Positions 28,238 to 62,794 of a stretch of 62,794 nt of DNA are shown one piece after another; position 1 is the stretch's first letter, and each line of letters starts with the position of its first letter. The stretch covers positions 1-62,794 of the forward strand of contig JASMDC010000022.1 in the NCBI GenBank assembly GCA_030753015.1, in the 5' to 3' direction. The notes beneath the pieces were generated by a model. It had not been told where the DNA came from and did no database searches. It saw only the letters and a list, made by a program, of their open reading frames with translations. The position numbers were made by a program, and so were the translations under genes. The stretch comes from Candidatus Undinarchaeales archaeon. GTDB taxonomy: Archaea; SpSt-1190; JASMDC01.

Positions 28238-28780
28238 TCACACCGGGAGATCCTCGCGTTCATCGCGGAGCTCCCTGATACGATGCCTGAGCTCGTCCAC
28301 AGGGTCCGCCAGGTAACGTCCGACGGCGAGCAGCGTGACGACCGTGGTGTCCTTGTCCAGTTTCAGGGCGGCATGGACCTTATTACGGTCGAAACCCGTC
28401 AGCGGCTCGAGCACGATACCAAGGTCCGTCCCCCTCATGATCATGAAGCCGGTGGCAATACCAACATCAAAGAAGTGCCATGAGGCCTCCTCGGGGACAC
28501 ACCCCTTCCTCTTCGATGCGAGCACGGCCACGAACATGGACGCAGTGCTGGCCCAGACGAGATTCTCTTCCAGCGCGTCCCGCACGAGCTCGAGCGATCG
28601 TTCCCCGTACACGAACTCGAACCGCCAACTCTCTTGGCTGAAGCACGAGGGCGCCATCTGGGCGCTCGCCACGAGGTTCTGCACGAGCTCCTCTCTCACG
28701 ACCAGCGGCTGCAATGGCCGGCAGGCGTGGGTGTCGCAGAACGTGTTCCCTTTCTTCTTCGATGACTTCTTCTTCACCAT
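28238..28780 (-). CDS. Nitroreductase-family protein
   Basis: This 180-residue protein fits the FMN-dependent nitroreductase family. The FMN-binding Arg appears in ACRPLQPLVVREELV, followed by the helix LVQNLVASAQMAPSCFSQESW with the family's APSxxNxQ-like pattern, and later FFDVGIATGFMIMRG. The N-terminus is Lys-rich. The start ATG 28780 is 15 bases past the ferritin-like gene's stop and preceded by GGGGGGA, so the two genes share a transcript. Cys in the FMN strand and the short length suggest a compact member. Redox defence is a plausible role given its partner. Confidence 0.78.
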   Translation of the reverse strand: MVKKKSSKKKGNTFCDTHACRPLQPLVVREELVQNLVASAQMAPSCFSQESWRFEFVYGERSLELVRDALEENLVWASTASMFVAVLASKRKGCVPEEASWHFFDVGIATGFMIMRGTDLGIVLEPLTGFDRNKVHAALKLDKDTTVVTLLAVGRYLADPVDELRHRIRELRDEREDLPV

Positions 28781-59651: not shown

Positions 59652-59686
59652 AATGTTTATATCCACGAAGCGCTATAGTATTATAG
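59652..59686 (+). promoter_or_regulatory. Promoter region of the giant Cys-rich gene
   Basis: A TATA-like TGTTTATATCC (59654-59664) is followed by the near-palindrome CTATAGTATTATAG (59673-59686). The start at ATG 59757 lies about 100 bases downstream, implying a leader of roughly 75 bases, unlike the leaderless genes around. The palindrome sits close to the predicted transcription start and could be an operator. Confidence 0.4.
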
Positions 59687-59756: not shown

Positions 59757-62700
59757 ATGGCAGGGAGGCAAGTGCAACTCCTTAATAGCAAGACCAGTAT
59801 TAGCCAGCTTTTTCTAGGTCGTCCTCTATCATCTAGCCGCTTGTACCGCCTCCTGCGCGCCCGTGCCGCCAGAGTACGACCAGCCATCTCCCTCGCGTCC
59901 CTCTTCCTCCTCACCGCTTTCCTCGTGGTCCTCGCCGTCCAGCCAGCGCTCTCAGACAAGGTAAAGATCGAGCTCCTCGATTATAAAAACAACGTAGTCA
60001 AGACCATCGCCAACATCGCCTGCTCCTGTTCGTGCCCGTCGGGAACTGGTGTGTATAAGGAGCGATTGTGCGACTGCAGCTACAACCTCGGCAAGTTCTG
60101 CGGATCGCCGGGCCAGGTCAAGGCCCGCGCCACATGGACCAGCCACGGTACGAACTGCGACGGGAAAGCCACCCACGAGGCCTCCCAATCCACCATATTC
60201 AATGTCTACGAATGTGACGACGTTGCCTATGCCAAGATCTACCATGTCACCGCCGGCCAAATCGACACCACGGCAAAGAGCGGGTGCTCATGCTCGTGCC
60301 CCGAGGGGACGGGAGCGAACGCCAAGCGCAAGTGCGAGTGCAGCGTTAGTGTCAGCTCCAGCGGATGCAAGGTCCCCGGACAGTACCAAGCGGAGACATT
60401 CATCGATCACGCCCAGAACGAGTGCGACGGCAAGGCCAGCGCCAAGATTTCGAGCAACCTCGGCAAGAAGAACACCTTCGTCTGTAATATCATCGACAAA
60501 GGCACCTACTACGTGTACCCGCCCGGCGTGTCGAACCCCAAAACGAGCGGGTACGCCCACAAGAAGGACGTGGACTGTCCCGCATCCTGCCCATCGGACA
60601 AGGTGTATACATCGTCCTGCCCCAGCTATACTATTCCCGAGGCGTCAATCTGCACGGACCGTAGCGGATTCTACACCACGAACACCCGCATACAGCACAA
60701 GGGCAACTCGTGCAAGGACGGCAAGCCACTCCACTTCACCACAAGCTGGTCGGAAAATACGAACCTGAAGTCGTTCTCCTGCGCCATGGACACCAGCATG
60801 AAGATCACCTACAAGGGCGGCAGCCATACCTACTTCTCCAACAAGGCGATGAGCTGTCCCACAGACCAGTTCTCGCGCGATGGCGCAGACAACAGCGCAG
60901 TCATTGCGTGCTCCTACACGGGCTGGACCCCCACCACGTACGTCACCGTGGGCGGCGTGAAGCGGCAGTGCGACTATGAGGGGAATCATGTGATGACCGT
61001 CACGCTCTCCTTCTCCGGCAAGGAATGGGACGGGAAGACCCTGGGCGTGACGTCCCATACGATCTCAAACACAATCTACAACGTCAACTATGACGGTGAC
61101 TCGGGCAACTACTGCAAATCGAACACGCCCTGCTTCACCGACAAGACGATCGGGGCCAAGGACAGCGGTATCGGCTGGAGCATCGGCGGGGAAAAGTCCG
61201 CGTCGTCGTGCTGTGGCGACGATGCCAATGAATGGTACCGCACGTGCGAGACCACCGAGAGTGCGAACCCGAAGTCATGCGATGGCGACAACAGTGCATG
61301 CTGCTCCCACAGTACCGACTGTGTCGCCCACAACAAATGCTTTGCCCATGGCTGGAAAGGGGACAGCGACAGCGATAATGACCAGGAGGAATGCAGTAGC
61401 GGAGTGTGGAAGGACATCACGGACCAGGTGACCTACTACGTCTACCACCCTAACGGGGCCGTCGCCAAGACCAGCTCCGCTATGAACTGCGCGATCTCCT
61501 GCGACGGCGGCACGTACATGTCCAACTGCGGAAGCTTCACGATCGACGAGGCCGCCCTCTGCACGCAGAAAGGTGGTTTCTACAGTGTCCGTGCCAAGGT
61601 CACCCACGGCGGTAGCTCGTGCGTGACCGATGGTAACGCACTCAAATTCACGACCAGCTGGATAGATGACAGCAAGAAGAAGATATTCTCCTGCGGCCTG
61701 GACGCCTCGGCCCGCGTATGGTTCTTCGTTGGTGGCCATTACTTCGTCAATAACGTAGCCATGACCTGTCCCGACCTTATTGCGGATTACGTCGCCGGTC
61801 AGGGGGACGTCGGCCTCCATTCGTGCACATATAGTGGTTGGACGCCTCCGGCGGGTTCCTATGTCACCGTGAGCGGTGAGAAGCGTTACTGCCAGAAGGA
61901 AGGTGATTACAAGACCAAGGTGCAGTTCACCTTCTCCGGCAAGAACTGGGATGGCACCAGCCTCCATACAGGCTCCCATCTCAAGGAGACGATCGAGGTC
62001 ACCAAGTACAACGTCGCCTGGGACGGACACTCGGGGACATACTGTTCCACTTCCTGCTTCAGTGACAAGAGCTCGGGTGACAATGGCATCGGCTGGAACC
62101 TGGGTGGCGAAGTAGCCTCCACCACATGCTGCGGTGACGACAGCGGGGAGTGGTACCGCAAATGCTCCACGAACGAGCTGATCAAGAACGCATGTAATGG
62201 CGATACGATCGCTTGTTGCTCCCACAAGACCGATTGTGTCTCGAAGAACAAGTGCTACCATAATGGATGGCAGGGCGATGCGGACGGTGACAAGGCCTCG
62301 GAGAAGTGCAGCAGCGGCACATGGGAGGACGTCAAGGAGTATGCGCAGATCAAGGTGTACCACGCAACGGCGGGTCTCATAAAAACCCAGAACAATGTAG
62401 TGTGCTCCACATCATGCCCGAGCGGGACGAGCGGCCAAGCGCAGAGCTACCAGGAGTGCTCCTGGTCATATCCCAGCTCGACGTGCAAGATCCCCGGCAA
62501 GTATCAGGCCGAGGTCACCCTCGACCACAACCAGCCCACCTGTAGCGGAGGTGCCATGGAAACAGGGGCCCCCTCCAAGATCGGCAAGCACGACCTGTTC
62601 ACCTGCAACATCATCGACAAGGGCACCTACTACGTGTACCCACCCGGCGTAACTAATCCCAAAACGAGCGGTTACTCGCACAAGAAGGACGTGGACTGTC

Positions 62701-62794
62701 CCGCGTCATGTCCCTCTGACAAGGTGTATACATCGTCCTGCCCCAGCTATACTATTCCCGAGGCGTCAATCTGCACGGACCGTAGCGGATTCTA
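59757..62794 (+). CDS. Giant secreted Cys-rich repeat protein, 3' end beyond window
   Basis: One frame stays open for 1012 codons from ATG 59757 to the window end with no stop. A basic stretch and hydrophobic helix (ISLASLFLLTAFLVVLAV) form an N-terminal signal or anchor to about residue 62. Two modules alternate. Type A (about 90-100 residues, CSCSCPSGTG and similar) occurs near 65-157, 158-249 and 866-956. Type B (about 309 residues, starting TYYVYPPG) begins at 250, 559 and 957. Each B has about 20 Cys, a GWTP-YVTV segment, CCGDD with EWYR, CCSH, and an acidic loop GDSDSDND or GDADGD. I recognise no family. The likely place is the cell surface. TTG 59841 is an alternative start. Confidence 0.85.
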   Translation, partial: MAGRQVQLLNSKTSISQLFLGRPLSSSRLYRLLRARAARVRPAISLASLFLLTAFLVVLAVQPALSDKVKIELLDYKNNVVKTIANIACSCSCPSGTGVYKERLCDCSYNLGKFCGSPGQVKARATWTSHGTNCDGKATHEASQSTIFNVYECDDVAYAKIYHVTAGQIDTTAKSGCSCSCPEGTGANAKRKCECSVSVSSSGCKVPGQYQAETFIDHAQNECDGKASAKISSNLGKKNTFVCNIIDKGTYYVYPPGVSNPKTSGYAHKKDVDCPASCPSDKVYTSSCPSYTIPEASICTDRSGFYTTNTRIQHKGNSCKDGKPLHFTTSWSENTNLKSFSCAMDTSMKITYKGGSHTYFSNKAMSCPTDQFSRDGADNSAVIACSYTGWTPTTYVTVGGVKRQCDYEGNHVMTVTLSFSGKEWDGKTLGVTSHTISNTIYNVNYDGDSGNYCKSNTPCFTDKTIGAKDSGIGWSIGGEKSASSCCGDDANEWYRTCETTESANPKSCDGDNSACCSHSTDCVAHNKCFAHGWKGDSDSDNDQEECSSGVWKDITDQVTYYVYHPNGAVAKTSSAMNCAISCDGGTYMSNCGSFTIDEAALCTQKGGFYSVRAKVTHGGSSCVTDGNALKFTTSWIDDSKKKIFSCGLDASARVWFFVGGHYFVNNVAMTCPDLIADYVAGQGDVGLHSCTYSGWTPPAGSYVTVSGEKRYCQKEGDYKTKVQFTFSGKNWDGTSLHTGSHLKETIEVTKYNVAWDGHSGTYCSTSCFSDKSSGDNGIGWNLGGEVASTTCCGDDSGEWYRKCSTNELIKNACNGDTIACCSHKTDCVSKNKCYHNGWQGDADGDKASEKCSSGTWEDVKEYAQIKVYHATAGLIKTQNNVVCSTSCPSGTSGQAQSYQECSWSYPSSTCKIPGKYQAEVTLDHNQPTCSGGAMETGAPSKIGKHDLFTCNIIDKGTYYVYPPGVTNPKTSGYSHKKDVDCPASCPSDKVYTSSCPSYTIPEASICTDRSGF
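60504..62624 (+). repeat. 2121-base super-repeat unit in the giant gene
   Basis: The block from the first type-B module (60504) recurs from 62625, an exact period of 2121 bases or 707 residues. It contains two type-B modules (residues 250 and 559) and one type-A module (866). The start of the second copy is cut by the window end, so the total copy number is unknown. Confidence 0.8.
60597..60673 (+). repeat. Exact DNA repeat, first copy (pairs with 62718-62794)
   Basis: These 77 bases match 62718-62794 base for base, including synonymous positions. The match is cut off by the window edge, so it may be longer. Surrounding sequence, from 60504 on, is highly similar but has mostly silent changes. 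Such identity within a repeat implies recent duplication or gene conversion. Confidence 0.85.
62718..62794 (+). repeat. Exact DNA repeat, second copy (pairs with 60597-60673)
   Basis: This is the second copy of the exact 77-base repeat, 2121 bases downstream of the first and in the same reading frame. It runs to the last base of the window. Long identical segments like this can also cause assembly collapse, so the true copy number in the genome may be higher than shown. Confidence 0.85.

Follow-up and report, generated by a model that had tools for sequence, protein, structure and literature searches.

The window analysed here, a stretch of 62,794 bases that is the entire contig C32, ends inside a long open reading frame, and the question it raises is what kind of protein this frame encodes. 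The frame is uninterrupted, as reported in a preliminary description of the locus: from the ATG at 59757 to the contig end at 62794 the plus strand holds 1012 sense codons and zero stops, and it is the assembly that breaks off here, not the gene. A chance or spurious frame is ruled out by the 1012 open codons, by the existence of a paralogue and by dN being lower than dS in all repeat pairs compared (for example, 0.31 versus 2.95). The repeat pairs are under purifying selection, and GC3 in the frame is 0.78. The following features were assigned.

59656..59662, plus strand: TATA-box-like TTTATAT, read from the sequence; the same element precedes the paralogue on contig C117
59673..59688, plus strand: CTATAGTATTATAGTC element, partly conserved before the C117 paralogue
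59757..62794, plus strand: 5' part (1012 codons) of the giant gene, with no stop before the contig breaks off (frame reading)
59877..59954, plus strand: signal-peptide-like segment, residues 41-66 (hydropathy peak 2.7), which aligns to the paralogue's equivalent segment
59955..60221, plus strand: domain A0 (HMM)
60222..60491, plus strand: domain A1 (HMM)
60492..60791, plus strand: domain B1a, A-type (HMM; hhalign)
60792..61100, plus strand: domain B2a, divergent A-type (HMM; hhalign)
61101..61424, plus strand: module Ca, CCGDD, 11 Cys (HMM, profile)
61362..61394, plus strand: Ca2+-type acidic loop DSDSDNDQEEC in Ca (motif)
61425..61703, plus strand: domain B1b, A-type (HMM; hhalign)
61704..62030, plus strand: domain B2b (HMM; hhalign)
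62031..62339, plus strand: module Cb, CCGDD, 11 Cys (HMM, profile; AF2 model m1a66f05ded1c)
62277..62309, plus strand: Ca2+-type acidic loop DADGDKASEKC in Cb (motif)
62340..62612, plus strand: domain A2 (HMM)
62613..62794, plus strand: domain B1c, truncated where the contig stops (97% protein identity to B1a)

The N-terminal hydrophobic segment noted previously is present at residues about 43-66, with a hydropathy peak of 2.7. The signal segments of the C32 and C117 proteins align and the 5' regions of the two genes are related. Signal cleavage of the C32 protein is predicted, and probable, after A-L-S.

We assigned the domains using HMMs built from the window copies, which delimit A (about 90 residues), B1 (about 95), and B2 and C (about 105 each, the latter with 11 Cys and CCGDD). 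The preliminary description had recognised two module types in the order A-A-B-B-A-B with a period of 707 residues, and both order and period hold exactly, with A1 beginning at residue 155 and A2 at residue 862. The B units measure 311 and 305 residues rather than the 309 then given, with the expected 20 Cys each. However, B is not a single primary module, being made up of B1 and B2, both A-like, and the separate Cys module C. The CCGDD, CCSH and acidic GDxDxD loops ascribed to B units are all confined to the C part. The homology of A with B1 is clear (98.3% by hhalign, E 1e-14), with six Cys and one Gly invariant across sixteen A/B1 copies, and A and B2 are probably homologous at a greater distance (68.9% by hhalign; by HMMER, E of about 1e-3 to 1e-2). 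Profile-profile comparison, suggested earlier as a check, relates B1 to A and probably B2 to A. The modules have no match in Pfam, NCBIfam or the PDB sequence families. The A-type domains are probably Ig-like beta-sandwiches. The model of B1-B2 had a pLDDT of 47, which is too low for a fold search.

The last 182 bases of C32 begin the B1c copy, whose protein is 97% identical to B1a, and the terminal 60 bases recur exactly 2121 bases (707 codons) upstream, which is the likely reason for the contig break at 62794. Searching the genome with the C32 protein identified three further contigs: C86, C26 and C117. C86 is a 7626-base contig consisting of a single open frame of 2542 codons without start or stop, and it starts in a B1 domain less than 20 residues from the C32 end point in domain register. 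C26 opens inside a B2 domain where C86 stops and runs for 1315 codons to a stop codon, its end being without a transmembrane segment (TM). C86 ends '...CRHEGEYSTDVTYDY' and C26 begins 'MFNRNGLTSTQQTIHKFLYNVNWDD', leaving about 3 residues missing relative to an internal C86 B2 domain; neither at the C32-C86 nor at the C86-C26 junction do the contigs overlap in DNA. Judged by domain continuity, C32, C86 and C26 look like one gene of at least about 4,870 residues, and extra repeat copies may be absent from the assembly between C32 and C86. As to extending the gene past the window, which had been proposed, the frame appears to continue on C86 and C26, across junctions that we infer, and there is a paralogue on C117. 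In C86 (L022), three A domains (residues 265-445, 932-1110 and 1416-1595) each hold a further A domain in the same place, following position 33, so the nesting is deeper than previously seen.

The paralogue on C117 is complete, at about 2,820 residues, with a C-terminal TM, by which it is predicted to be membrane-anchored, and an arginine-rich (RR) tail. Between them, the two giants comprise dozens of Cys-rich modules. Residues 449-649 of C32 (window 61101-61703) and 541-738 of C117 have a dS of 0.16-0.34, versus about 0.9-1.2 for the other inter-gene domains compared; the two giants thus seem to have exchanged modules, or undergone conversion, recently.

Not one N-X-S/T sequon is present in the A/B/C repeats, which total 6,458 residues. 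In 1000 shuffles the mean is 70.7 and the lowest count 51, and the real repeats contain 69 reversed motifs. Pairs of N with a later S/T number 52-88 at a distance of 1 or 3-8; depletion is confined to distance 2, where the sole pair is N-P-[ST], a combination that does not count as a sequon. Shared repeat ancestry does not explain the absence, because the 416 Asn of the repeats occupy 404 distinct contexts; the reversed motifs all lie in distinct contexts. The C-terminal tails of the giant proteins have 7 sequons versus 6.3 expected. The genome encodes an STT3/AglB homologue and, in the 43% of the genome analysed, sequons number 550 versus 386 expected in exported low-Cys ORFs and 807 versus 775 expected, near neutral, in cytosolic ORFs. 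Other stretches of this genome with at least 9 Cys per 100 residues show only mild sequon depletion (0.80), so complete absence is special to the giant pair within this genome. In our reading, the giant proteins would move past the oligosaccharyltransferase at the outer face, with glycans on the repeats being selected against; sequon purging is thus indirect but strong evidence of export.

Among 64 C-module proteins of other archaea, the sequon ratio falls as Cys content rises (rho -0.64, p 9e-9, not phylogenetically corrected), and the reversed motif shows no correlation with Cys content. Several such proteins from Nanoarchaeota, Altiarchaeales and Woesearchaeota have 0 or 1 sequons versus 8-38 expected. 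In other archaeal phyla, C-module proteins L071, L088, L100, L119, L121, L132 and L142 are almost sequon-free if Cys-rich, and Cys-poor ones are enriched. Sequon loss is a simple sequence signature that tells Cys-rich from glycosylated surface proteins, and the correlation with Cys content lends itself to testing in archaeal genomes at large.

At least seven Thioredoxin_4 (DsbA-like) domains with CPFC motifs exceed the Pfam cut-off in this genome, some of them in tandem within membrane-anchored proteins; L149 and L150 (contigs C92 and C63) are membrane-anchored with two such domains in tandem. VKOR was sought in the genome as a disulfide partner and not found. One exosortase/archaeosortase-family protein is present (TIGR04178), and an 'APG' motif followed by a TM and a basic C-terminus is common to C117 and three other exported proteins. 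The C117 C-terminus (PG, TM, RR) scores below every NCBIfam sorting-signal cut-off, and comparison with the tails of other C-module proteins did not show homology (best E 0.033). Pfam detects no known ligand-binding or catalytic domain in C32, C86, C26 or C117.

We used a profile of the C module to determine its distribution. In its own genome it finds 17 copies (E down to 7e-41), all within these giant genes, and across archaeal genomes it has matches in 17 of 394. There are 76 loci in named genomes: 5 on MAG contigs labelled bacterial and 71 archaeal. The archaeal loci, assigned to phyla by counting record titles, comprise 30 from Woesearchaeota, 15 from Aenigmatarchaeota, 8 from Nanoarchaeota, 1 from Pacearchaeota, 2 each from Diapherotrites, Altiarchaeales, SpSt-1190 and Euryarchaeota SM23-78, and 9 more. 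In the family alignment, which includes 81 modules from other genomes, six Cys columns are invariant, and our modules have the family signature (CC-GDD...E, CC, DC, C(Y), (Y)C and a near-invariant W). The hosts elsewhere are large proteins, mostly with an N-terminal hydrophobic segment and some with a C-terminal TM, LamG or Ig-like domains. The C module is thus a widespread, uncurated module, mostly of DPANN archaea. No Pfam or NCBIfam model matches A or C, and PDB holds no sequence relative of the modules, in keeping with the earlier failure to recognise a family. None of the papers searched mentions a CCGDD motif in archaea. A lack of homologues outside related archaea, named earlier as a sign of support, is not borne out, as C spans Woesearchaeota, Aenigmatarchaeota, Nanoarchaeota, Diapherotrites, Altiarchaeales and SpSt-1190 as well as the five bacterial-labelled contigs. 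A whole-protein scan of a genome contig collection gave no match. We rejected a viral origin: neither the full query nor a single module found a related viral contig, and the family profile gave one weak 20-residue match.

The A domain is far rarer than the C module. Among the 394 genomes, four others contain it. In three of these it is a single copy that follows directly on the signal segment in proteins of surface type, in most cases ahead of Ig-like repeats, and in the fourth it is a weak, frame-broken match. Ig-like surface proteins with such a single A domain (L153, L154, L155 and L158) belong to two other archaeal families. The C-module loci of other genomes, when checked, had no clear A domain, and in these searches A and C occur in one protein in this genome only. 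C and its rarer partner A are the building blocks of giant surface proteins in archaea of the DPANN and their relatives.

A DxDxDxxxE.C loop is present in 12 of our 15 C modules versus 0.18 in shuffles, and in 38 of 135 C modules elsewhere versus 0.9 expected, so that it is frequent and not universal. We liken it to Ca2+ sites because of its Dx[DN]xDG-type pattern, which diverse families use for Ca2+ (PMC3123361). Ca2+ binding by the acidic loops, raised as a possibility in the preliminary description, is plausible as a motif-based prediction, and it is the enrichment of the loop that stands as observed. Of the module structures, C could be modelled and B1-B2 gave no usable model. AF2 on Cb with 83 sequences yielded a small, beta-rich structure with a mean pLDDT of 75, rising to about 90 at residues 61-100. 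In the Foldseek search with module C, the top ranks are nearly all proteins that contain vWC/FN1 modules, none of them significant (best E 0.22), and a VIA comparison with vWC/FN1 gave Z 2.1-3.0 across 37-56 residues. The PDB fold search of the C module as a whole thus had no significant match, and a viral structure library had none. The vWC and FN1 modules are likewise small, disulfide-rich beta modules, although they have no sequence similarity to C, and a vWC/FN1-like fold is only a lead from these non-significant matches.

The genome encodes many other giant Cys-rich exported proteins: in the 43% surveyed, a length of at least 500 residues and a Cys content of at least 4% are combined in 26 ORFs, giants included, and nearly all have an N-terminal hydrophobic segment. 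The gene had been put forward as the best candidate at this locus for an undescribed system; amid so many giant Cys-rich exported proteins, it is not a lone one but belongs to a large Cys-rich surface repertoire, within which its freedom from sequons is distinctive. Three sibling ORFs, C20:1136-7594 (L186), C21:806-7129 (L220) and C29:199461-207482 (L192), carry M23 and NlpC/P60, M23 and SLT, or three C-type lectin domains, and have in common a C-terminal motif like C.L.V.C..CLP.CELHVD..TC. They are possible, putative antibacterial surface enzymes of an archaeon.

The explanation that we favour is that a Sec-type signal would translocate the giant protein of at least about 4,870 residues (C32-C86-C26), and that oxidation outside the membrane would turn it into a string of small domains with disulfide cores. 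The A-type domains, probably Ig-like beta-sandwiches, would alternate with CCGDD modules whose acidic loops would bind Ca2+, and the protein would be displayed on the surface as a stiff, protease-resistant, unglycosylated fibre. Its most likely role would be that of an adhesin or stalk contacting particles or other cells, beside the membrane-anchored C117 paralogue. Export and architecture are well supported, and it is very likely that this is an exported, disulfide-rich, repeat-built surface protein. Of the disulfide-hardened surface fibre or adhesin first proposed, the giant, repeat-built, Cys-rich and probably surface-located protein stands (on sequon purging, signal segments and DsbA-like genes). 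Fibre shape, adhesion, disulfide formation, signal cleavage and the Ig-like fold are what we infer beyond this. Taken whole, the reading of an exported, disulfide-hardened, unglycosylated, Ca2+-binding surface fibre serving as adhesin or stalk is somewhat favoured. A bolder proposal, that giant disulfide-hardened chains purged of sequons form an undescribed class of archaeal envelope proteins, here in a genome that otherwise enriches its exported proteins in sequons, is tentative and rather doubtful. If true, disulfide-rich, glycan-free fibres would be an alternative archaeal envelope strategy recurring across DPANN phyla, combined in this genome with giant peptidoglycan hydrolases that would serve in contacting bacteria.

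The two paralogues could instead be structural envelope proteins, forming an S-layer or sheath in which they make up a cross-linked, Ca2+-stiffened coat and not an adhesin. Their related 5' regions, uniform repeats and Ca2+-type loops would suit such a coat, as would the lack of glycan sites where tight packing is needed. However, S-layer proteins of archaea typically carry N-glycans and are much smaller, and the presence of many other giant Cys-rich exported proteins means that this pair is not singled out as a coat. The S-layer-like hamus protein is also reported to have glycosylation sites (PMC4460559). We regard a coat as unlikely. Still less probable is a contact-dependent antibacterial or predatory surface apparatus working with the giant Cys-rich peptidoglycan hydrolases and C-type-lectin proteins. 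The sibling giant exported ORFs with M23, NlpC/P60, SLT or three C-type lectin domains speak for it, and peptidoglycan hydrolases that kill bacteria are known in archaea (PMC12352652), but the A/B/C proteins are without a catalytic domain, share no tested homology with the hydrolases and do not neighbour them in the contigs read.

The Cys clusters might also bind metal (Zn or Fe-S), making the protein a metal store or redox conduit instead of a disulfide fibre. CC pairs, CxxxC spacing and one zinc-finger-like Pfam match (zf-FCS, in C86) are compatible with this, whereas the even and conserved number of Cys per domain, the small beta-rich C model, the DsbA-like machinery and the export implied by sequon purging all argue against it, and we consider it very improbable.

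Besides the vWC and FN1 modules, three known kinds of protein come closest. The CCGDD-module proteins of DPANN archaea, a family defined here, are large exported proteins with the same acidic loop and a C module with invariant CC, CC, C, C, C and a near-invariant W. Unlike ours, they combine LamG or Ig-like domains with one to seven C modules, and those that are Cys-poor have many sequons; A-type domains alternating with C are found in this genome only. Giant SPEARE-type proteins of Nanohaloarchaeota (PMC10266531) are also giant, exported, repeat-built DPANN proteins with Ig-like domains, but they have a VirB4/TraG-like ATPase domain, whereas the giants here are Cys-rich and Pfam finds no such domain in the assembled parts of C32, C86, C26 and C117, the residues between contigs being unseen. 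Hami of Ca. Altiarchaeum (PMC4460559) are built from an archaeal surface fibre protein with a predicted beta-sandwich; that protein is a 97-kDa assembling subunit with glycosylation sites, described without mention of cysteine, and ours is a single giant sequon-free chain.

The giant gene comes after a family B DNA polymerase gene, and its other neighbours encode a TFIIE-alpha-like protein, radical SAM and U32 proteins and an ion channel; none has a functional link to it. A tRNA-Sec called by ARAGORN on the minus strand (window 28602-28676) is only 75 bases long, matches no Rfam tRNA and is probably a false call. No archaeal SSU rRNA was found in the genome (G000), so its placement in the SpSt-1190 phylum rests on the nearest genome with a C module among those searched, that of archaeon SpSt-1190 (G001). 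SpSt-1190 MAGs from a marine oxygen-deficient-zone study are reported to be about 4 Mb, to branch apart from the rest and possibly to be free-living (PMC10936187); the genome studied here fits that description. It comprises 3.85 Mb in 117 contigs, versus 0.6-1.1 Mb for the other members examined of its phylum, which is represented here by ten genomes.
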